Assembly: GCA_003669055.1 (NCBI GenBank)
Contig: RAYB01000001.1
Span: forward strand, 186,001-250,000
Reading direction: 5' to 3'
DNA length: 64,000 nt
Source of the DNA: a bacterium 1XD21-70
GTDB lineage: Bacteria > Bacillota > Clostridia > Lachnospirales > Lachnospiraceae
This document shows, in pieces, positions 384 through 58,329 of the stretch; positions within the stretch are counted from its first letter, which is position 1, and every line of letters begins with the position of its first letter. Below the pieces are notes generated by a model. That model was not told where the DNA came from and did no database searches. It worked only from the letters and a program-made list of their open reading frames with translations. The position numbers and the translations under genes were made by a program.

Positions 384-1727
384 TTAATTCATCCCGCTAA
401 GAACCTCCAGCGCCTTCTGCACCTGGTTGTCCTGATCCAGAGGAACTTCCAGCGCTCCTTCCAGCCCTTCCGGGATCTCATACTCGATCTCCACATCGGG
501 ATCCAGCCCCTTTTTATGCAGATCCACACCTCCCGGCGTATAATAATGGGATATGGTCATCTTTACGGCCGACCCGTCGTCCAGCGGTACCAGGCTTTGG
601 ACAATCCCTTTCCCAAAGGAAGTCGTGCCCACCAGCTTCGCACATCCATAGTCCTGCAATGCGCCGGCCAGCACCTCCGATGCACTGGCCGAATTGCCAT
701 TGATCAGCACCACCATCGGGATATCCAGTTCATGGCCGTCCTTCTTCGGGTACCGGGGGTCGTTCTGCCTGGAATCCGACTCAAAACAGATCTTCCCGCC
801 CTCGCTGAAATACCGGTCTCCCTTACCGTTTTTGTCCGAGGTCGATACTATCATCCCGTCTAACTTGTCATCCGGAAGGATATATGCCGCCATCTCCACC
901 ACGGCATCCAGCACACCGCCAGGATTGTCCCGCAAGTCAATAATCAGCTTCTCCATCCCTTGTTCCTGCAAAGAATCGACAGCCTCCTTAAACTGCTCGC
1001 CGGTCACCAGTTCAAACTGGGTTACCATAATATATCCTGTCTGCCCGTCCAGCATCTGTGACTCGACTGTGGTCACCTCCACAATACGCCGCTGGATATG
1101 CAGTTTAACCTCCTCGCCTTCGCGGATCACCGTGATATCCACATAGGTGCCTTCCTCTCCACGGATCTTTTGCTGCACCAGCACGTCAAGTTCCATTTCC
1201 GTCACCTCGGCATCCCCCACCTTGTACAGGATATCCCCCTTCTTCATCCCTGCCTCCTCAGCAGGGGATCCCTGGAACACCCTCAAGGCGGTAATCAGCC
1301 CCGAGGACAGGTTCTGGCTCACCAACACGCCGATCCCGCAATAAACCCCCTCTGTCTCCTCCGTCAGGGATTCGTACTCCTCCGGTGTGTAATATACGGT
1401 ATAAGGATCCCCCAAGCCTGCCAGCATCCCTTTATAAATCCCTGCCTCCATCTGCTCCGGGTCGATATCCTCCTCAAACAGGAAATTGCGGTTCACCAGG
1501 TATTGCAGGGTGTTCAGCTTCTGGTTCACCGTGTTGATGTCAATCCCTCCCTGGCTCTTAGTCTCCTCTGCTACCTGCACCTGTGCCTGGTTTTCCATCA
1601 CGGTTTGGCCGATCAGGTTGATCCCTGCCGCAATCCCGACGATTATCAGGCCGACAAATGCTGTCACCAAAGAACCAGTCAGCACACCCTTCCAAAATTT
1701 ATTTTTTGTCTTTGTCTCGTTTTCCAC
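384..1727 (-). CDS. S41 family C-terminal processing peptidase
   Basis: A 447-residue CtpA-type serine protease anchored by one N-terminal membrane helix (about residues 13-40) and facing outside. A PDZ domain lies near residues 118-200 and the S41 catalytic domain follows. The Ser-Lys dyad is visible in GNSASASEVLAGAL (serine) and TTSFGKGIVQ (lysine). Family members trim the C-termini of envelope proteins and often act with peptidoglycan hydrolases. It is the last gene of the minus-strand run ftsE-ftsX-LytM hydrolase-ctpA, 95 bases after the hydrolase. That context suggests it controls or processes the hydrolase, as known for CtpA/Prc partners elsewhere; this is inference. Confidence 0.93.
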   Translation of the reverse strand: MENETKTKNKFWKGVLTGSLVTAFVGLIIVGIAAGINLIGQTVMENQAQVQVAEETKSQGGIDINTVNQKLNTLQYLVNRNFLFEEDIDPEQMEAGIYKGMLAGLGDPYTVYYTPEEYESLTEETEGVYCGIGVLVSQNLSSGLITALRVFQGSPAEEAGMKKGDILYKVGDAEVTEMELDVLVQQKIRGEEGTYVDITVIREGEEVKLHIQRRIVEVTTVESQMLDGQTGYIMVTQFELVTGEQFKEAVDSLQEQGMEKLIIDLRDNPGGVLDAVVEMAAYILPDDKLDGMIVSTSDKNGKGDRYFSEGGKICFESDSRQNDPRYPKKDGHELDIPMVVLINGNSASASEVLAGALQDYGCAKLVGTTSFGKGIVQSLVPLDDGSAVKMTISHYYTPGGVDLHKKGLDPDVEIEYEIPEGLEGALEVPLDQDNQVQKALEVLSGMN

Positions 1728-11434: not shown

Positions 11435-13909
11435 TCACTGCCCGGCCACTGCACAGACAAAATCATTGCCCCGTGCCCGGAAGTACTCCGTGCTGTCATT
11501 CAGCCCTTCCTTGTAAGTCTCCCGGGAAACCGGGTCATAAACCGTAATATTATAATTGTCATAGCCGCAAAGCAGCAAATAAGATCCTTCCCCGGTATAT
11601 CCGACCACCGGGATCCCCTGGTCTATAAAATACAGCATCTGCGGCAATGTACAGCCCCTAGCATCCAGAACCGTCACCCCGTCATTGTAGCTGCGGCTGC
11701 CAAAAAAGCTGTCCAGGTGGCGTTCCACCGCCGCAAACGAAACCAGCGGGTCACGGATGCCGCGGGTATTGCTGCGGTTAACCCTCCCCCAGAGAATCTG
11801 CTGGTTCTGGTCTGCCACGATCCCCATCCGTTCATAAGCCAGGGCAACTGCCTGGGAAAAATCCGTCGTAACCCCCAAAAGCCGGCCTCCTCCGTAGGCA
11901 TAAAAACGCAGGCCCTGGAACTGGAAATTTGACTGCAGGTTCAAAATGCCAAATGCATCTGTCCCCACCCGGCCGGGCGTCCCTGTCCGGATCCCCCTGC
12001 CGCCGCGGATTTCTTTGCTCAACTGCACAAAATATATCCTCCCCCGCTCCTGCGAAGCAAACCATCCAATCCCGTCCAGCTTCCCTGTCCCTACCTCCAC
12101 GTTGCAGACGATCGTGTCTTCCTGCACCATTGCATAACTCTGGTCCCCGGTCTTTGCCATCCGCTGAAGATGGATCCTGCTTTCATCCACAGTGACTCCG
12201 TCCACATAATAACCTTCCTTCTCATAGCGGGTCTCCACCTGCATTTCATCGTTGATAATCTCTACCGCATACATGGGAAAACCCTGCAGGCGCCCGTTGG
12301 CAACCCACTGCTGCCCTGCCCGGGAAATCCCGTAGACCAGATCCCTTCCCACAAACCCCAGTGTCCGCACATATTCCTGGTTCTCGCCACGGATATCCTG
12401 CTTTTCCCCGGTTTCCAGATCCAAAAGGTGTAAAACCGACGCCTCAAAGCACTTTCCGTTCTCCTGCCAGGCCAGCCTGGCCTTGTCCACGCTGACGGCA
12501 AAACTCCCTTCCTCCAGGGCATCCGCCACCACCATGGTTTCGTTGCTTTTCATGTCGATCCCATAGACCGCATGATCCAGGTATAAATACAGCATATTGG
12601 ATGCCGACTGGTAAGACAGCAGGCCCAAGTCTTCCTCCAGCTGCCCAAACGAGACGCTCACCGGGATAAAAAACAGTTCCTGGATAGCATTGTTTTCCTT
12701 TTCAAATTGGTAACCCACAATGCCAAACCGCCCCTCATGGTTCCCCCTGTTCTGGTAACCATAGACCAGGAAATAGATGTCGCCATTGTCCTCTGCCCGC
12801 AGAATCCGGATCTCGTGCTGGTTATAATTGTTCCTCATATCCCGGTTATTATTTCCGCGGAACGAAAAAATCTGGGTTCCGTGGCGTTCCTCCTGGTCAT
12901 AACTCCAGAGATCCCGGTTTGCCCGGTAAGCAATCACATTGCCGTCCGGGCTTGCCTTTGCCTCCACCCGGTCGTCATTGGTAATGCCAAGCATAATGCG
13001 TTTCCCCAAATAAGCATTCCTGTTCCCGTCAAAAATCTGGTCTACGGTCCGCTCATAATCCATCAGGTAGGTACGGGTTTCATTCCATTTCATAGTGAAA
13101 TTCTCCTCCACCTGATACAGTTCTGTGCCATCCTGCCCTTCCCGGGATGCCAAATATGCCAGGCTGACGCATCCCATCAGCCCATCCAGTTCCTTTAGGG
13201 TCACCTGAATCTCCCCTGCCTGTTCCATCTTAAGCCCTCCCCAGGTCAAATGGGAAAAGCTGGAATGGATGCATGTATGCCCGTAAGAACTGTTGTCCTC
13301 ACTGGTATTCGGCTCCATATAAGTCACTAACTCCTGGGCTTGCTCATAATGGAATGTCTTCGATGCAAAATCGGTAGCCAGTTGAATCATGGGCTGCGCT
13401 TTTTCATCCGTTGTCCACATGATACGGGTATAATAAAAAACCTGCCCCATCCCTTCCGTCTCCAGTTCCAGCCTCAGCAGGTATTCCCTGCCCTCTGCCA
13501 GCAGATTCTGGATTGGCAGCTTCACACGGATCCCGTCCTCCCCCGTCTCCCAGGACTCCAGGCGGGTATCCTCCACCAGGCGGGACAAATCCAGGCTGCG
13601 GATCTCATAGCGGATCCCCAGCACGGCTTCCCTGCCGCCAGTGATATGCAAAGACAAATTCCTGTTCTCCGGAAGGATCGTCAGGCTGTCCCTTGCCACT
13701 GCATTCCCCATATCCTGGCGGTAGCCATACATCGGGTTCATCTCCTGCCCGAACATATCCACATATACCACCGGCAGGCGCGCCTCTTCAAAAGCAGTAT
13801 AAGTTGTCCTCCCCTGGTTCAGCCATTCCCGGTTCCCCACAAGATATATCAGCAGCACAACTGCAAAAATGCCAAAAAGAATGCTTATCTTTTTTATCAT
13901 ACGATTCAT
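11435..13909 (-). CDS. Large extracytoplasmic protein of unknown function with degenerate C39-like end
   Basis: An 824-residue protein with a single N-terminal membrane anchor (about residues 8-26) and everything else predicted outside. The middle (about 320-700) reads as repeated short beta strands with alternating aromatic residues, like a propeller (for example TMVVADALEEGSFAVSVDK), but I cannot count blades reliably. The last 90 residues resemble a C39-type cysteine-peptidase fold: MLYFIDQGIPVVGYTG, then LLLCGYDNYNITVYDPV. The usual catalytic His-bearing GHW motif is replaced by GSYLLLCGYD, so it is probably inactive. The stop lies 86 bases before kduI. Function unknown. Confidence 0.7.
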   Translation of the reverse strand: MNRMIKKISILFGIFAVVLLIYLVGNREWLNQGRTTYTAFEEARLPVVYVDMFGQEMNPMYGYRQDMGNAVARDSLTILPENRNLSLHITGGREAVLGIRYEIRSLDLSRLVEDTRLESWETGEDGIRVKLPIQNLLAEGREYLLRLELETEGMGQVFYYTRIMWTTDEKAQPMIQLATDFASKTFHYEQAQELVTYMEPNTSEDNSSYGHTCIHSSFSHLTWGGLKMEQAGEIQVTLKELDGLMGCVSLAYLASREGQDGTELYQVEENFTMKWNETRTYLMDYERTVDQIFDGNRNAYLGKRIMLGITNDDRVEAKASPDGNVIAYRANRDLWSYDQEERHGTQIFSFRGNNNRDMRNNYNQHEIRILRAEDNGDIYFLVYGYQNRGNHEGRFGIVGYQFEKENNAIQELFFIPVSVSFGQLEEDLGLLSYQSASNMLYLYLDHAVYGIDMKSNETMVVADALEEGSFAVSVDKARLAWQENGKCFEASVLHLLDLETGEKQDIRGENQEYVRTLGFVGRDLVYGISRAGQQWVANGRLQGFPMYAVEIINDEMQVETRYEKEGYYVDGVTVDESRIHLQRMAKTGDQSYAMVQEDTIVCNVEVGTGKLDGIGWFASQERGRIYFVQLSKEIRGGRGIRTGTPGRVGTDAFGILNLQSNFQFQGLRFYAYGGGRLLGVTTDFSQAVALAYERMGIVADQNQQILWGRVNRSNTRGIRDPLVSFAAVERHLDSFFGSRSYNDGVTVLDARGCTLPQMLYFIDQGIPVVGYTGEGSYLLLCGYDNYNITVYDPVSRETYKEGLNDSTEYFRARGNDFVCAVAGQ

Positions 13910-50986: not shown

Positions 50987-51679
50987 CTACTCAAAATACA
51001 CCGCCCCTGCATAAATCCGCTCCTTTACATACTCATCCAAATCCAGCAATGCCTGTCCGCCCCAGGTGGACACTCGAAGCTTCACCGCCCCGCCGTCCGC
51101 CGCCACCCCCGTCACTGTCACCCAGTGAAGCGAAATGTCCTGCTTATAGCTGCCCCTGCCGGGAAGCACCACCTCCACCTGCTTAAGCTTATGCGTGCCC
51201 ACCAGCATTGCCACCGGCTTGTCCTTTTGAAGCCCTTCCCATACATACCGCAGCACATTCTCCCGGCTGAAACCCCAGCCCCGCCATACTGCCTGCAATT
51301 TCACCCCCCGCTCCCTCGCAAAGCGCTCCATGCCTCCTGCCAGGCGGCTGACCGGCCAGATTCCCAGGGGGAACCGCCCCACACGAAACGGCCTTACGTA
51401 CCCGTATAAGTCCACCATATGAGCCAGGAAATTGGCCTTCCTGCAATCCGGATAAGGATAAAGCCCTTCATATGCCGGGCTGCCCTGCGCCAGATAGGCC
51501 GCAATATTGGCCAGTGCCACCGTCCCGCAGGCTCCCTGCCTGGCCGCATGGCTCTGCCATCCACGCCCCTCCCAGGCAAACCATGCCTGGTTCCCGCCGT
51601 AATGCTGCCCGTCCTCCCCGGCAATCCGCACAAAAGATTCCGCCCTCCGCAGACATACGGCATCATTCCCGTCAGGCAA
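50987..51679 (-). CDS. Papain-like (C39-like) cysteine-protease fold protein
   Basis: About 230 residues, no signal peptide. GACGTVALANIAAYL places a Cys in the C39/BtrH position, and SLHWVTVTGVA and STWGGQALLDLDEYV place His and Asp or Asn, so a catalytic triad is possible. No ATG is available early; a TTG at 51679, nine bases after AAGGAGG inside the end of glpP, is the likely start. It is thus coupled to glpP and is the last gene of that run. Substrate unknown; not reported to me as part of glycerol metabolism. Confidence 0.7.
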   Translation of the reverse strand: MPDGNDAVCLRRAESFVRIAGEDGQHYGGNQAWFAWEGRGWQSHAARQGACGTVALANIAAYLAQGSPAYEGLYPYPDCRKANFLAHMVDLYGYVRPFRVGRFPLGIWPVSRLAGGMERFARERGVKLQAVWRGWGFSRENVLRYVWEGLQKDKPVAMLVGTHKLKQVEVVLPGRGSYKQDISLHWVTVTGVAADGGAVKLRVSTWGGQALLDLDEYVKERIYAGAVYFE

Positions 51680-52232
51680 ACCACAGATCCTCCTTGGTGG
51701 TGGAGATGGCATCCGCCCCGGCGGCAAAGGCGGCCATGATATCCTTTTTGTCCGAAATCAGCCCCCCGGCAATGATCGGGATATCCGTATAGCCACGGAT
51801 CTCCTTTAATACCTTGGGGATAATCCCCGGCATCACTTCCACCAAATCCGGGTGAAAGATATCGATCTGCTTTTTCATGGTGTTTACTGCCATGGAATCA
51901 ATCATAAACGTCCGCTGCACCCCATATAACCCCAGTTCCAAAGCCCGTTTTACCAAAAGCGGCTTCGTGCTGATAATCCCGTCTGCACTGGTGGCCTGCT
52001 TGATAAAATCCACCGCCACCTCCTTGGCACTCAGCCCTGCCATCAAATCCACATGGACAATCGCCACCTTCCCGTGTTCCTGAATCTGCCGGACAATCCC
52101 TCCGATATTGCAGATATTCCCATACAGGATAAACACCACCTGGCATTCAGAATCAAAACAGCGCTGCAGCCCCTTATCGTCCTTCACCGCTGCAATCACA
52201 GGCGATGTCTCCAGCAACTCGATTGCTTTCAT
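51672..52232 (-). CDS. glpP: Glycerol-3-phosphate responsive antiterminator
   Basis: A 186-residue GlpP from the ATG at 52232 (MKAIELLETSPV), with AAGGGGG upstream. It has a TIM-barrel-like shape (VAIVHVDLMAGLSAKEVAVDFI, ADGIISTKPLLVKRALELG, DIPIIAGGLISDKKDI). With glycerol 3-phosphate bound, it binds leader RNA and prevents termination ahead of glp genes. Two matching leaders in this window are described separately. Confidence 0.92.
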   Translation of the reverse strand: MKAIELLETSPVIAAVKDDKGLQRCFDSECQVVFILYGNICNIGGIVRQIQEHGKVAIVHVDLMAGLSAKEVAVDFIKQATSADGIISTKPLLVKRALELGLYGVQRTFMIDSMAVNTMKKQIDIFHPDLVEVMPGIIPKVLKEIRGYTDIPIIAGGLISDKKDIMAAFAAGADAISTTKEDLWFA

Positions 52233-52476
52233 ATTGGCAATCCCCCTTCCCGCTTCCATAAAGCCCCGTTTTCCTTCTGTCTATTATAAATGAACTTAGC
52301 CAAAAACTCAAGAATCGGCACAGCCCAAGCGCCAAACGCTTTGCACTGTGCCAATCCCTTCTCTGCTTCATTTCATTCTTTTATTCTTCAGCAAGCCGCT
52401 TTCCCTTCGCCGCTTTGCTGTTTTTCTATACCTATCAACCGCTCTCCCGGACTGCCTATATTTTCGGCCGCCTCAA

Positions 52477-52839
52477 TTATACCCTGGCCACGTTCTTGGT
52501 GGCAATCACCGGAACCCCGGTTCCCGCACAATTCTCAATCACTACATCCCCGATAGCCACAGGCGCATTGATTGTGGTTTTACGGATCTCCCCCATAATC
52601 TCAAAAATCTTGCCCTTGGGGATATCTTCCTTCGTCTTGACCGATACCATCTCCAGTTCCCCGCCGTTCACATGTACGCTGGAGGTCACAATCCTGGTGG
52701 GGCTTAACACCTCCTTGCGGGCATAGTCATCGCCCCTCTTACAGGTATTTCCGCTTACTTCCACGTTCTCCCCGTCTATACGGACAGTCAATGGGCATCC
52801 CAACGGGCACCCGATACAGATCAGTTCTCTCGTCTCCAT
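52477..52839 (-). CDS. DUF1667 protein, small subunit of G3P dehydrogenase-like complex
   Basis: A 120-residue protein. Cysteine cluster CIGCPLGCPL near residues 8-15, another cysteine in GNTCKRGDDYAR and later IENCAG suggest an Fe-S or zinc centre. It directly follows the two flavoproteins (one base gap) and is likely the third component of this complex, as seen in many Clostridia where DUF1667 genes follow glpA-like genes. Confidence 0.88.
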   Translation of the reverse strand: METRELICIGCPLGCPLTVRIDGENVEVSGNTCKRGDDYARKEVLSPTRIVTSSVHVNGGELEMVSVKTKEDIPKGKIFEIMGEIRKTTINAPVAIGDVVIENCAGTGVPVIATKNVARV

Positions 52840-52840
52840 A

Positions 52841-54106
52841 TTATTCCACCTCCGTACAAATCACGATATTCTTCAAATCCGGATACTCCCCAAAGCTTTC
52901 CTTTTTCAGGATTACCTGCTCCATCTCCCCGGGAGCCAGCACCTTTTTCTTCTTCTTGGAAACCTGGACCCCGTCATAGTATACGCTGATATAGCGGTCC
53001 TTATATACATCCGCTACACGGAAACGGACAGTCACCTTCTCCTGCATATTATTGATATCCAGGGTCTGAGGCACGGTATAACGGACACCGTTCTCCGCCT
53101 TCAGTTCAACCAGATGGGCATTGCCCTTGTCTTCCCCGCTCTTTACATACTCCGCCGCATTGGTTCCTGCCAGGGTGGCTTCCTCGGACACATAGTCCAC
53201 TAAGTCATGCACATGGAGCACATTGCCGCAGGCAAACACACCCTCCGCGCTGGTCTCTAGCTGGTCATTGACCTCCGGGCCAGAAGTGATCCGGCTCATG
53301 TCAATGCCAATGCTGCGGCTCAGCTCGTTCTCCGGGATCAGGCCGACCGACAGCAGCAGCGTATCGCAGCTGTAATGCTCCTCGGTTCCCGGGATCGGTT
53401 TGCGGTCCGGCCCTACCTGTGCGATGGTAATGCCGGTCACCCGCTCCTTGCCCTCGATATCCACAACCGTATGGCTCAGCTTCAGCGGAATGCCGTAGTC
53501 GTCCAGGCACTGTACAATATTTCTCTTCAAGCCGCCGGAATAAGGCATCAGTTCTGCCACCACCTTTACCTTGGCGCCTTCTAAAGTCATCCTTCTTGCC
53601 ATGATCAGCCCGATATCACCGGATCCTAAGATCACGACCTCCCTGCCCACGCTGAACCCTTCGATGTTCATCAGCCTCTGGGCCGTACCGGCAGAATAGA
53701 TGCCTGCCGGGCGGTAACCCGGAATGTTCAAGGCACCTCTCGGGCGCTCCCGGCATCCCATAGCCAGGATAATCGCTTTGGCCTGGATGGTGGTCAGGCC
53801 GTCCTCCTTGTTGATGACCGTGACTTCCTTATCCTTGTTGATATCAATGACCATGGTGTTCAGTTTGTAGGGGATCTTCTCCGCCTCTACCATCTCGATA
53901 TAACGCGCCGCATACTCCGGCCCGGTCAGTTCTTCCTTGAAGGTATGAAGGCCGAACCCATTGTGGATGCACTGATTTAAGATTCCGCCCAGGCAGCCGT
54001 CACGCTCCAGAATCAAAATGTCCTGAATGCCTGCCTTCCTCGCAGCCACTGCTGCCGCAAGCCCCGCAGGACCCCCGCCGATAATTACGATATCATGCTT
54101 TGCCAT
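52841..54106 (-). CDS. NAD(P)/FAD oxidoreductase, second subunit of G3P dehydrogenase-like complex
   Basis: A 421-residue flavoprotein. FAD loop IVIIGGGPAGLAAAVAA, cysteines in GCLGGILNQCIHNGFG, NAD-binding VVILGSGDIGLIMARR and the late FAD motif GVFACGNVLHVHDL are present. It presumably passes electrons from the GlpA-like subunit to NAD(P)+ or to another carrier. Part of the minus-strand operon with GlpA-like and DUF1667 proteins, gaps of twelve and one bases. Confidence 0.9.
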   Translation of the reverse strand: MAKHDIVIIGGGPAGLAAAVAARKAGIQDILILERDGCLGGILNQCIHNGFGLHTFKEELTGPEYAARYIEMVEAEKIPYKLNTMVIDINKDKEVTVINKEDGLTTIQAKAIILAMGCRERPRGALNIPGYRPAGIYSAGTAQRLMNIEGFSVGREVVILGSGDIGLIMARRMTLEGAKVKVVAELMPYSGGLKRNIVQCLDDYGIPLKLSHTVVDIEGKERVTGITIAQVGPDRKPIPGTEEHYSCDTLLLSVGLIPENELSRSIGIDMSRITSGPEVNDQLETSAEGVFACGNVLHVHDLVDYVSEEATLAGTNAAEYVKSGEDKGNAHLVELKAENGVRYTVPQTLDINNMQEKVTVRFRVADVYKDRYISVYYDGVQVSKKKKKVLAPGEMEQVILKKESFGEYPDLKNIVICTEVE

Positions 54107-54118
54107 CTCGCTGCCCTC

Positions 54119-55555
54119 CTATTTCTGACCGGTCAACATATTGGAACCGGGTGCGTTTTTACAAATATCTTCCATCTCCATGCCGCGCTCTCTTGCCAGG
54201 ATCTCCATGGTCCTGGGGGTGCAAAAGCCTGCCTGGCACCGACCCATGCCCTGGCGTACCCGGCGTTTAATGCCGTCTAAGGACACTGCCCCCAAGGTGC
54301 GGTTGATCGCATCCACGATCTCCCCCTCGCTGACGCCCTCACAGCGGCAGATGATGGTTCCATACTCCGGACGTTCCTTAATCAGGGCAGCCCGTTCCTC
54401 CTTGCTCAGCTTCTCCGGGCGCACAAAGCCTTTGCGCTTACCGTTCCACTCTGCCTTCTTCGCAGCCCCTGCCTTCTCGGCTACCTTCTCGGCCAGGTAA
54501 ACGCCGATTGCCGGTGCGCTGGTCAGCCCCGGGGACTCGATGCCTGCCGCATCAAAGAAGCCCGGTGCGTCCTCGGCCTCTCCCACAATGAAATCATCCC
54601 CGTCTTCATGGGCACGCAGGCCGGAAAAGGAAGTGATCACCTGGCGGAAGGGCACGTTTTTCACGCTGACGCTTCCCTTTTCCATGATCTCCGCCAGTTC
54701 CTCTGCCGTGGTAGCCGTGGCTTCCTTGTCCTCGATATTCTTGGCTGTCGGCCCGGTCAGGAGATTGCCGTGGATAGTGGGGGTCACCAGGATCCCCTTG
54801 CCCAATTTGCCGGGCAGCTGGAAGATCGTATGCTTCACATGGTTTCCCGCCTCCTTATCCAGCAGGCAGTAATCGCCCTTCCGGGGAGTGATATGAAGCT
54901 TCCTTGCACTGACCATATTATGGATTTCATCCGCATAGACACCGGCAGCATTGATAACATAAGCCGTATGTACCACGCCGCCCTCCGTCTCCAGGTCATA
55001 GCCGTCCTCCGTCTTAACAACCTTCTTAACCTCTTCCCGGAAGATAAACTCCACCCCATTGTCGCAGGCATTCTCAGCCAAGGCAATGGTCATGCCAAAG
55101 GGGCAGACAATGCCGCCAGTAGGTGCGTACAGCGCTGCTACCACAGCGTCGCTGACATTAGGCTCCATAGCCCTGGCCTCATCCCCGGTAATGATCTTTA
55201 GATCCGGCACCCCGTTCTTCACGCCCTTGTCATATAATTCCTGCAGTGCCGGCCGGTCTTCCTCGGCAAAACATAAAATCAAAGAACCGTTCCTGTCAAA
55301 TTCAAAATCCAGGTCCTCTGCCAGTTCTCCCATCATGCGGTTGCCTTCCACATTGAACTTGGCCTTCACCGAACCGGGAACCGCGTCATGTCCGGCATGG
55401 ACAATGGCGCTGTTAGCCTTGGATGTGCCGGAGCAGACATCCTCCTCCCGCTCAATCAGCGCTGTACGCATCTCATAGCGGGAAAGTTCTCTCGCTATCG
55501 CACAGCCGGTCACACCGCCGCCGATAATCACCGCATCGAAATTCCATTCCTTCAT
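54119..55555 (-). CDS. GlpA-like FAD-dependent glycerol-3-phosphate dehydrogenase with BFD domain
   Basis: A 478-residue flavoprotein. N-terminal FAD loop AVIIGGGVTGCAIARELS and the substrate-side GTSKANSAIVHAGHD are followed by a C-terminal BFD-like [2Fe-2S] domain with CRCEGVSEGEIVDAI and RCQAGFCTP (CxC and CxxxxC). It oxidises glycerol 3-phosphate to dihydroxyacetone phosphate. First gene of its operon, with a GlpP-type leader. Relatives act on other hydroxy acids, but the glpK/glpP setting favours glycerol 3-phosphate. Confidence 0.9.
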   Translation of the reverse strand: MKEWNFDAVIIGGGVTGCAIARELSRYEMRTALIEREEDVCSGTSKANSAIVHAGHDAVPGSVKAKFNVEGNRMMGELAEDLDFEFDRNGSLILCFAEEDRPALQELYDKGVKNGVPDLKIITGDEARAMEPNVSDAVVAALYAPTGGIVCPFGMTIALAENACDNGVEFIFREEVKKVVKTEDGYDLETEGGVVHTAYVINAAGVYADEIHNMVSARKLHITPRKGDYCLLDKEAGNHVKHTIFQLPGKLGKGILVTPTIHGNLLTGPTAKNIEDKEATATTAEELAEIMEKGSVSVKNVPFRQVITSFSGLRAHEDGDDFIVGEAEDAPGFFDAAGIESPGLTSAPAIGVYLAEKVAEKAGAAKKAEWNGKRKGFVRPEKLSKEERAALIKERPEYGTIICRCEGVSEGEIVDAINRTLGAVSLDGIKRRVRQGMGRCQAGFCTPRTMEILARERGMEMEDICKNAPGSNMLTGQK

Positions 55556-55864
55556 GTCTCTTCCTCCATATACATTTTTGCGCCTCTGCAGCCATGCCCA
55601 GGCACAGCCGCACCTACCAGTCAGGTAACAGCCCAGGCACCCCGGACTGCTATCCAGTCAGTTACTTCCCCCTCCAAGCCTTATAACCGCCGTTCCCGCC
55701 GGTTATAAAAAAAGAGTAAGGGGAATTAAACGGTCTATCCGCTTCCTTCACCTTACTCTGTCATCTCAAAGGTTTTTTAACTGTTATAATGCTACCACAG
55801 TTCTACAGGAATTGTCAAGACAATTTTACCATTTCAATTTGTTAACTTTTTAACCATTTTGTCA
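55556..55864 (-). promoter_or_regulatory. Leader of the glpA-like operon: promoter, GlpP-type motif, terminator
   Basis: On the minus strand: TTGACA (55818-55813), 18-base spacer, TGG-TAGCAT extended -10 (55794-55789), then the motif CCTTTGAGATGACAGAG (55772-55756), whose end forms the first arm (AGAGTAAGG) of an intrinsic terminator (arms 55759-55751 and 55721-55713, T-tract 55713-55707). ACCTT upstream can instead pair with AAGGT to make an alternative hairpin. The remaining 55556-55704 holds the ribosome site only. Confidence 0.82.
55707..55759 (-). terminator. Leader terminator of the glpA-like operon
   Basis: Arms AGAGTAAGG and CCTTACTCT followed by seven T on the minus strand, 150 bases before the start codon. 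It is in a leader, not after a gene, so it is expected to be conditional. Confidence 0.85.
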
Positions 55865-56566
55865 CTATTCACTAATAGTAATCACGCCCGACATCTCTGC
55901 CAGATGGGAAAATAAGGTTGCCTTGTCAAAACCCGGAGGATAAACCACCTCAAACTCCAGCTTGACCTCTTCTTTTTTATTTTTATGGATCTTAACCGAA
56001 GCCACATCTACCCTGGAATCATCCAGGTATTTCCGCATATTCTTGACTGCATCCGCCTCCTGGACAAGGGTCATGCGGATCATTCCCGCAGAAGCCACCT
56101 TGGCCAGATAAGAAATCCGGTGGGTGATGATCTGCATCACAACCAGCAGCAAGGTGGAGGCAATCCCGATCACATAAAGCCCGGATCCTACCGTCAGCCC
56201 GACGCTTGCCGTTGCCCACATCCCGGCCGCCGTTGTCAGCCCGTTGACCAGATTGTTCCTGACAAAAATAATCCCTGCACCCAGAAAGCCCACGCCGCTG
56301 ACCACCTGCGCCGCCACTCGGGCCCCGTCGTGATCCGGCATATCCATAAAACCATACTTGGATACCACCATGGCCAGGGCTGAACCCAGTGCCACAATCG
56401 CGTGGGTGCGGGTACCTGCCGACTTATTGCGGTTCTTCCTTTCATTTCCGATCATCCAGCCCAAAATACAGGCTAATCCCACACGAAAAATCAATTCCGC
56501 CTCACTTAGCAGAAACATCGGATCCGTCAACCCACGGATTGCCATCCCAAGTGAATCAACTGTCAT
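55865..56566 (-). CDS. MgtC/SapB family membrane protein
   Basis: A 233-residue protein: four to five membrane helices (about 18-130) with the MgtC signature GMWATASVGLTVG, GTRTHAIVALGSAL and ARVAAQVVSGVGFLGAGI, then a cytoplasmic ACT-like domain (about 150-233). Members affect Mg2+ or phosphate balance and ATPase activity. It follows glpK by 61 bases, so it may be in the glpK transcript. Confidence 0.9.
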   Translation of the reverse strand: MTVDSLGMAIRGLTDPMFLLSEAELIFRVGLACILGWMIGNERKNRNKSAGTRTHAIVALGSALAMVVSKYGFMDMPDHDGARVAAQVVSGVGFLGAGIIFVRNNLVNGLTTAAGMWATASVGLTVGSGLYVIGIASTLLLVVMQIITHRISYLAKVASAGMIRMTLVQEADAVKNMRKYLDDSRVDVASVKIHKNKKEEVKLEFEVVYPPGFDKATLFSHLAEMSGVITISE

Positions 56567-56627
56567 ATGTATTACCTCCTGTTATTGATATTGCCCGCAA
56601 CCGTTCAGGCTGCCAAACCGGCAGCGC

Positions 56628-58124
56628 CTACTCTTCCTCTGACCAGCAAAGCGCACACTTCACCGCACGCTTCCATCCCTTCACCAGCTTCTGCCGGCGT
56701 TCCTCCTCCATGGTGCTCACAAAAGAGCGGGAAACCTGCCAGTTTTTGCGGATCTCTTCCTTGCTCTTCCAGTAGCCCACAGCCAGCCCTGCCAGATAAG
56801 CCGCGCCCAAAGCTGTCGTCTCGATACACTCCGGGCGGACTATCTCCGCATTCAGGATATCCGACTGGAACTGCATCAGGAAGTTATTCGCACAGGCTCC
56901 CCCGTCCACCTTCAGCTTCTTTAGGGGGATCCCGGAATCCTGCTGCATTGCCTCAATCAGATCCGATACCTGGTAGGCCATGGACTCCACCGTTGCCCGG
57001 ATAAAATGCTCCTTATTGGTGCCGCGGGTCACCCCTACAATCGTCCCCCGGGCATACTGATCCCAGTAAGGGGCTCCCAGCCCTGCAAAGGCCGGCACCA
57101 CGTACACGCCCCCCGTGTCTTCAACCGAACCGCAGTACTCCTCCGTCTGCCCGGCTGTACGCACCATGCGCATCTCGTCCCGCAGCCACTGTACGGCAGC
57201 CCCCGCCACGAACACACTGCCCTCCAGGGCATACTGGCTCTCACCCTGGCTGCTGGCCGCAATCGTAGTCAGCAGTCCATGGTGGGATTTGACCGCCGCA
57301 TTCCCGGTATTCATCAGCAAGAAACAGCCCGTGCCGTAAGTATTTTTCATTTCACCGGCATCAAAGCAGCACTGCCCGAACAACGCTGCCTGCTGGTCCC
57401 CGGCGGCCCCGGCAATCGGAATCTTCCCCCCCATCACGTCCGATGAGGTGTAGCCGTAGACACAGCTGGAAGGCTTCACATCCGGCAGCATGCATTTGGG
57501 AATCCTGAAATATTCCAGGATCTCCTCATCCCAGCATTTTTTGTGGATGTCAAAAAGCATGGTACGCGCCGCATTGGTATAATCCGTCACATGGATGCAG
57601 CCCTTCGTCAGGTTCCAGATCAGCCACGTATCCACCGTGCCGAACAGCAGATCCCCCCGTTCGGCCCGCTCCCTGGCCCCCTCCACATGGTCCAGGATCC
57701 ACGCAATCTTGCTCCCCGAAAAGTAAGCGTCCGGAATCAGCCCGGTGCGGTCAATGACCATCTCCTCCAGCCCGTCCTCCTTCAGCTTCTCAATGCGGTC
57801 TGCCGTGCGGCGGCACTGCCAGACAATCGCATTGTACACCGGCTCCCCGGTATCCCGGTCCCAGACAACCGTGGTCTCCCTCTGGTTCGTGATGCCGATG
57901 GCGGCAATGTCACTGTAATGGGCGCCGATCTTCCCCATCGCCTCCATGGTCACCGAGAGCTGCGAAGACCAGATCTCCATCGGGTTGTGCTCCACCCAGC
58001 CCGGCTGAGGATAAATCTGTGTAAATTCCTTCTGCGCCACACTGCAGATGGTTCCCTGCTCATCGAACAGGATACACCGGGAACTGGTGGTTCCCTGGTC
58101 CAGTGCAATTACATACTTACCCAT
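56628..58124 (-). CDS. glpK: Glycerol kinase
   Basis: A 498-residue FGGY kinase (glycerol to glycerol 3-phosphate). Starts [16 protein letters not shown], with GGAGG upstream; the longer frame to 58268 is leader. Family motifs [32 protein letters not shown] and the C-terminal [19 protein letters not shown] are intact. Controlled by a GlpP-type leader; its product is the signal for GlpP and the substrate of the dehydrogenase encoded downstream. Confidence 0.97.
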
Positions 58125-58219
58125 TTCCTTCTCCTCCTGTTCCGCCTTGCCAATGACCAACCCATTCCCGCATTCCGCCCACAGGCAAAGGATTGTTAAA
58201 CTTTTGCCAAATGGTATAG

Positions 58220-58329
58220 AAAAAGCAGGGATGAACGGTCGCCCGCATTCATCTACCTGCTCTGTCATCTCTAAGGCGTTATTGTATTCTATATGTTTAA
58301 TATTACCATGAATTCTTGAAGTATGTCAA
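58220..58329 (-). promoter_or_regulatory. Leader of glpK: promoter, GlpP-type motif, terminator
   Basis: On the minus strand: TTGACA (58329-58324), an 18-base spacer ending TGG, TAATAT (58305-58300), then CCTTAGAGATGACAGAG (58276-58260). The last base of the motif begins a terminator stem (arms 58260-58248 and 58235-58225) followed by TTTTTC. The layout, spacing and motif are the same as in the glpA-like leader. The rest of the gap (58125-58219) only leads to the glpK ribosome site; 58330-58384 holds nothing I recognise. Confidence 0.82.

Follow-up and report, generated by a model that had tools for sequence, protein, structure and literature searches.

Background

Antitermination by GlpP has been described for the glycerol genes of Bacillus subtilis. 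The glpD, glpFK and glpT promoters each carry a site for GlpP together with a terminator, and their induction depends on GlpP, as does the switch in the glpD leader; such leaders are portable switches, as demonstrated for the glpD leader (PMC9604022). B. subtilis GlpP is also said to bind the antiterminator together with glycerol 3-phosphate (PMC7430163). Here we analyze a stretch of 64,000 nucleotides (nt), referred to as the window, from the bacterium 1XD21-70 (Lachnospiraceae; assembly GCA_003669055.1, contig RAYB01000001.1, positions 186,001-250,000), in which the leaders of glpK and of a glpA-like operon share a 17-nt motif and glpP is encoded nearby. We propose from comparative analysis that both leaders are very probably GlpP-dependent antitermination sites, acting as two-state transcription switches of the type described in Bacillus subtilis.

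GlpP is an RNA regulator for which the structures of two relatives have been solved. The relatives of known structure of the window's GlpP are entries 3kts and 1vkf, which have a TIM-barrel fold. The literature searched gives no sequence-and-structure rule for the RNA target of GlpP, and no consensus of that target was found in it or in Rfam; the primary B. subtilis GlpP papers of 1991-2002 may contain one. The kind of switch is already known, and it is the consensus of its putative RNA target, as derived from aligned leaders, that appears to be new. With such a consensus, the question of the GlpP target can be put to one hairpin, glycerol regulons can be annotated throughout the Clostridia, and GlpP relatives come into view that seemingly control other pathways.

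Results

Two leaders share a promoter, a motif and a terminator

All window features described below lie on the minus strand. The original prediction was that the two leaders have a promoter, a 17-nt motif and a terminator in common, in one order, and every part of this description that we checked was correct. A consensus scan predicts the promoter of the glpA-like operon at 55789..55818, with TTGACA at 55818-55813, an 18-nt spacer ending in TGG and TAGCAT at 55794-55789; it has 10 of 12 consensus matches and a TG before the -10 box. The glpK promoter, predicted in the same way at 58300..58329, has TTGACA at 58329-58324, an 18-nt spacer that also ends in TGG, and TAATAT at 58305-58300. The motif follows as CCTTTGAGATGACAGAG, which holds the conserved core GAGA-N-GAG, at 55756..55772 in the glpA-like leader, and as CCTTAGAGATGACAGAG at 58260..58276 in the glpK leader.

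In both leaders an intrinsic terminator stands between the promoter and the first glp gene. The terminator of the glpA-like leader (55707..55759, first arm AGAGTAAGG) folds with -24.1 kcal/mol (z -4.2) and that of the glpK leader (58220..58262, first arm GAGCAGG) with -23.8 kcal/mol (z -3.8); none of 200 shuffles was equally stable. The first arm begins within the final AGAG or GAG of the 17-mer in both cases, so that the AGAG end is part of the terminator, as had been proposed.

The pairing of ACCTT with AAGGT across the motif, also put forward earlier for the glpA-like leader, is possible. It gives a putative antiterminator hairpin at 55750..55773, in which ACCTT (55773-55769) and AAGGT (55754-55750) enclose the loop TGAGATGACAGAGT; it was identified by stem search and by covariation across relatives, and the first terminator arm overlaps it. 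Its glpK counterpart at 58255..58277, found by stem search, is weaker and pairs GCCT with AGGT around the loop TAGAGATGACAGAGC. Taken alone, the two hairpins have stabilities of -2.0 and -0.6 kcal/mol, respectively. In the glpK leader of relative G046, AACCT and AGGTT occupy the position equivalent to the window's glpK hairpin (pairing by eye). By this overlap, and by the covariation in Clostridia reported below, the terminator and the small upstream hairpin are predicted to be mutually exclusive folds.

The closing stem and the terminator covary in Clostridia

As judged from the leaders of relatives, the conserved unit is an RNA element, with GAGA-N-GAG in a loop usually of 12-18 nt and a short closing stem of variable sequence. 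The 3' half of this stem and the second GAG lie within the first arm of the terminator. We fetched up to 20 kb around glpP from 33 other genomes of the family that have this gene (37 loci, some genomes having 2-3 copies). Just ahead of a terminator, many leaders in these loci carry a looser pattern, with GAGA and GAG a few bases apart in the loop. The window's ACCTT/AAGGT is replaced in relatives by TTACC/GGTAA, TTTGC/GCAAA, TGCC/GGCA or CCTTTG/TAAAGG.

A first model, R1, was built from 17 leaders with the terminator helix as its sole structure, leaving the upstream stem unmodelled. When run on 80 glpP loci of named genomes, which were the best 80 among the matches listed in a GlpP search, it gave 54 matches at E <=1 in 47 loci (hand count), and 52 of the 54 had the same orientation as glpP, against half expected by chance. 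Seed sequences are repeated in L138, L156 and L198. Two near-duplicates and three matches without the core were dropped, and the 49 that remained include the seed duplicates L156 and L198. The stem was evaluated by pairing the 5' flank of each match with its own 3' flank and comparing the result with re-pairings of flanks from different matches; in either case the register was left free. The closing stem covaries: the mean best-stem weight was 9.69 versus 7.29 after re-pairing (standard deviation (sd) 0.40; maximum of 1000 re-pairings 8.60).

The same was found in fresh Clostridia genomes. This draw comprised 29 loci, none of which contains an exact training sequence; L298 and L300 are cut at a contig end, and six loci without the core were left out. 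The 23 cored loci gave a stem weight of 10.46 versus 7.15 (sd 0.65; maximum of 2000 re-pairings 9.26), or 10.36 versus 7.07 when one identical pair was merged. The stem was present in none of the six fresh loci that came from genomes lacking glpP.

The terminator helix, homologous to that of the window's glpA-like leader, covaries as well. In an alignment of 60 leaders 97.2% of its cells are paired and its covariation is 0.574 versus 0.255, above slid versions of the helix and reached by none of 500 shuffles; as this alignment was fitted to the terminator helix, the figure leans towards that helix. When the upstream stem was aligned in a fixed geometry, the best one paired 68% of cells in 26 rows; this approach was rejected because the loops vary too much in length, and the free-register re-pairing test is consequently the main evidence for the stem.

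The element follows glpP across genomes

The genome of 1XD21-70 itself encodes GlpP, a predicted glycerol-3-phosphate responsive antiterminator (51672..52259; PF04309, 222.9 bits with a cut-off of 27). A second model, R2, was built from the 60 aligned leaders and applied to 291 Clostridia genomes, in 101 of which glpP passes the Pfam cut-off; exclusion of the genome under study left 100 genomes with glpP to be compared with 190 without it. The element was matched in 20 of the 100 and in two of the 190 at E <=1e-3 (Fisher 1.7e-8), and in ten and none, respectively, at E <=1e-4. The two matches in genomes without glpP at 1e-3 have unrelated neighbour genes and no core. With the genome of 1XD21-70 included, 28 of 76 R2 matches (one of the 28 being its own) lie within 10 kb of a glpP.

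A similar association was observed upstream of glpA-like genes in the family, where R2 matched 22 of 29 loci with glpP versus 1 of 16 without it at E <=0.3, and 18 versus 1 at 0.01. The first set derives from 32 genomes with a glpA-like match. Scoring covered 29 of these and omitted G062, G065 and G095; in G062 and G095, leaders had been obtained with R1. The set includes the genome of 1XD21-70 and several training sequences. For the second set, 16 of 20 genomes with a match were taken as 17 loci, leaving out G038, G045, G050 and G063 (<=42% identity); L344 was then removed for want of upstream DNA, which left 16 loci from 15 genomes. A family search with R1 at E <=1e-3 matched 18 of 34 genomes with glpP and 1 of 86 without it (hand count), but 14 of those 18 are sources of the seed and we do not use this result as evidence.

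The literal motif is a local spelling of the element

The motif itself had been proposed as the target of GlpP in this lineage. Covariation and co-occurrence with glpP give good support to the main idea, a GlpP antitermination site in which a hairpin and the terminator are mutually exclusive; the 17-mer proves to be its local spelling. At up to three mismatches, CCTTWGAGATGACAGAG matches the window at 55756-55772 and 58260-58276 and nowhere else, with 0.22 matches expected and at least two obtained in 2 of 100 shuffles. Its 12-base core, GAGATGACAGAG, has two copies in the genome, both in these leaders. When one mismatch is allowed, the 17-mer has a third match in the genome, which lies inside a murD-like reading frame and is thus a chance match.

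Across 120 genomes of the family the 12-mer is present in 85 and the 17-mer, at one mismatch or none, in 14. Recognized glp leaders among these 17-mer matches are the two of the window, the glpK leader of G046 (an exact match) and that of G033. An exact match in G086, a genome without glpP, sits in an open frame of 301 codons, and the remaining matches examined (eleven, in part; G084 left out, and the leaders of the window and G046 set apart) sit in open frames of 157-834 codons. The 12-mers in 29 loci of relatives fall without exception within open frames of 100 codons or more, as do 561 of 580 random positions there, so this result says no more than that they are not leader-like; the window's glpA-like leader is in a 74-codon frame and the G046 glpK leader in one of 51 codons. 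Since the 12-mer is so widespread and 17-mers in glp leaders are so few, the letters alone are a weak signal, and the literal motif was rejected as the conserved unit. The search for the 17-mer near glp genes of relatives, which had been suggested as a check, thus recovers the G046 and G033 glpK leaders; elsewhere the letters of the stem differ, while GAGA...GAG and the terminator stay.

Genes behind the leaders and reach of the element

In the window, the first leader precedes glpK (56628..58121), a glycerol kinase gene with Pfam FGGY and an NCBIfam GlpK match over its cut-off. The second precedes a glpA-like FAD oxidoreductase gene, "glpA1" (54119..55555), with DAO and Fer2_BFD domains, whose nearest NCBIfam model, type 2 glycerol-3-phosphate oxidase, is matched below the cut-off. 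The operon continues with a pyridine nucleotide-disulphide oxidoreductase gene (52841..54106; Pfam Pyr_redox_2), labelled glpB-like from gene order, and with its third gene, assigned to DUF1667 by domain match (52477..52839). Downstream of the operon, on the same strand, lies glpP. Between glpK and the glpA-like leader there is a gene for an MgtC-like membrane protein (55865..56566; Pfam PF02308), and an MgtC-like gene directly upstream of the glpA-like gene is also seen in two relatives (L063, L067).

In other genomes the genes that follow the leaders, identified from Pfam or from the appearance of the protein start, are mostly glpA-like enzymes, and also glpK. Genes resembling glpF follow the leader in L295 and in the pattern-scan candidates L082 and L084. 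Other genes found there encode an ABC permease (candidates L088 and L092), an Ldh_2 enzyme (L315) and a HAD hydrolase (L299), and in L304 the leader, in which no stem was found, precedes an MFS transporter resembling GlpT. The leader stands directly before glpP itself in L070, L078, L081 and L302, and in the candidate L069; its position in the first four points to positive autoregulation by GlpP. More than one glpP paralogue passes the cut-off in each of G001, G568, G662 and G740, among other genomes, so several antitermination circuits may coexist in one genome.

Core and terminator were also seen outside the Clostridia. Cytobacillus spongiae (Bacillaceae) has glpP, glpF, glpK and glpD in a row; by eye, the core and a terminator can be made out in front of glpF (pairing TGTG/CACG) and in front of glpD (pairing GGTT/GACC). 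In the class of Longicatena (L221-L248, about positions 1360-1480 and 2030-2160), a GAG...GAG core with a terminator is often located before glpP, after it, or both; the R2 matches in this set number 39, from 28 loci of that class and eight loci of other records. These leaders raise the possibility that the GAG core has a wider reach than the closing stem. This would fit recognition of the loop, but the hairpin stays a claim at the level of Clostridia.

A group of leaders whose stem is of the AGUUAC/GUAACU type and whose loop contains GAG...GAG was observed in three genomes, G085, G077 and G611 (L089:1136-1214 and 11449-11519 (+), 931-991 (-); L086 near 16794 and 6894 (-); L311; L367). All three genomes have one before an FAD oxidase gene, with electron-transfer flavoprotein (ETF) genes next in G085 and G611. 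In G085 and G077 such a leader also precedes a short-chain dehydrogenase gene, and in G085 another precedes an MFS transporter gene. Each genome has a GlpP-like gene close by, and the loci of G085 and G611 also contain BCCT transporters and an FGGY kinase. In a tree, GlpP of G611 groups apart from those of G085 and G077. As these leaders stand before non-glycerol genes near GlpP-like genes, GlpP relatives may sense other phosphorylated polyols. We lean, by a narrow margin of confidence, towards the broader view that a GAGA-N-GAG hairpin with a freely changing stem that overlaps the terminator would constitute an RNA family read by the whole GlpP family and carried beyond glycerol, with the AGUUAC group as its example.

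Discussion

A putative GlpP-dependent switch

Comparison among genomes establishes competing predicted folds, the covariation of both in Clostridia and their link to glpP. When glycerol 3-phosphate is absent, the nascent RNA would form the intrinsic terminator and transcription would end before glpK or the glpA-like operon. When it is present, GlpP would be expected to bind the GAGA-N-GAG loop and to keep the small upstream hairpin closed, the terminator would be blocked, and RNA polymerase would read on. The first terminator arm takes in the 3' strand of the hairpin (AAGGT; in the glpK leader AGGT) as well as the second GAG, and a closed hairpin should consequently prevent the terminator. Hairpins as weak as these, facing terminators of about -24 kcal/mol, must be held by something. 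GlpP would be the natural candidate for this role: it is encoded here, it belongs to the right family, and there is the precedent of B. subtilis. By inference, it is GlpP that binds, through recognition of the GAG loop and in response to glycerol 3-phosphate.

Several observations weigh against this proposal. The glpK hairpin of the window is weak. At E <=1e-3 R2 has no match in 80 of the 100 genomes with glpP, so that such leaders may not accompany every GlpP; at E 0.05 it matches 44 of these 100 genomes and also 19 of the 190 without the gene. In G114 (L364), a genome 98% complete and with no glpP over the cut-off, a leader-like match precedes the glpA-like gene, which reads in two pieces; glpP may have been lost there, or may be hidden in an assembly gap. 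Outside the Clostridia, the glpF leader of Cytobacillus scores low with R2 (20.1 bits, E 0.19) and its glpD leader is not matched at all, and the Listeria glpP locus, inspected and scored with R2, contains no clear site with core and terminator. Furthermore, the closing stem is unsupported in the Longicatena-class set, where 34 cored matches gave 4.76 versus 3.96 (sd 0.50), with 122 of 2000 re-pairings as high.

Alternative explanations

The explanation that survives best after GlpP, although we consider it unlikely, is another RNA-binding antiterminator, of the BglG/LicT or HutP/TRAP type, or a ligand-binding RNA such as a riboswitch, with glpP as a neighbour by chance. TRAP is a reader of GAG-type triplets near a terminator. 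The two GAG triplets of the core do recall triplet readers, for instance HutP with its NAG repeats (PMC7430163); however, the element tracks glpP over the 291 genomes and at glpA-like genes, and a comparison with 4227 Rfam families returned no match, except for a chance one to a human long non-coding RNA family.

A role of the motif as a DNA operator, bound by a repressor or an activator and with the terminators incidental, is less likely still. In both leaders the motif is located just 3' of the promoter, a frequent position for a repressor site. Yet the two flanks vary in a paired manner, for which a DNA site has no need, the core is non-palindromic, and the element co-occurs with the gene of an RNA-type regulator. 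The location of the second GAG within the terminator arm also argues for RNA, this being in part by construction in the model matches.

We give very little credence to simple attenuation without regulation, in which the 17-mer would be a recent copy. The confinement of recognized glp leaders with the 17-mer (one mismatch at most) to this genome and two relatives would agree with it, but the stem and terminator sequences of the two leaders differ outside the 17-mer, and the element recurs over families of Clostridia with altered letters. Attenuation by a short leader peptide was rejected as hardly credible: the ATG within GAGATGACAGAG does open an MTE-stop frame in the glpA-like leader and a frame in phase with glpK, both present in the window, but this ATG is not kept among relatives, which have GAGATT, GAGAAA, GAGACC or GAGACG. 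The ATG of the glpK motif, at window position 58268, begins an open reading frame of 546 amino acids.

Comparison with known systems

The GlpP-dependent switch proposed here shares with BglG, LicT and SacY and their ribonucleic antiterminator (RAT) hairpin the principle of a protein-stabilized hairpin that competes with a terminator. The window's GlpP is of the G3P_antiterm family, unlike those proteins, and to our knowledge GlpP has no PRD domains. LicT recognizes two bulges together with the intervening stem (PMC7430163), whereas here the letters of the stem vary and the loop is conserved; with a closing stem of varying sequence and no Rfam match, the leaders were rejected as RAT elements of the BglG/LicT kind. 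The leaders of HutP and TRAP are alike in having conserved NAG or GAG triplets near a terminator (for HutP, PMC7430163). Here, in contrast, a core with two GAGs sits in one hairpin loop and the protein is of another family; assignment to HutP or TRAP was rejected, each leader having two GAG triplets (counted by eye) instead of clusters of several repeats.

The closest system is that of the B. subtilis GlpP leaders, which are alike in belonging to glp genes, in having a promoter, a site (putative here) and a terminator in the 5' untranslated region, and in the presence of glpP, a likeness drawn from their description in PMC9604022. The locus studied here differs in that glpP lies downstream of the second operon, and in that this operon carries a DAO/BFD, Pyr_redox and DUF1667 set in place of glpD.

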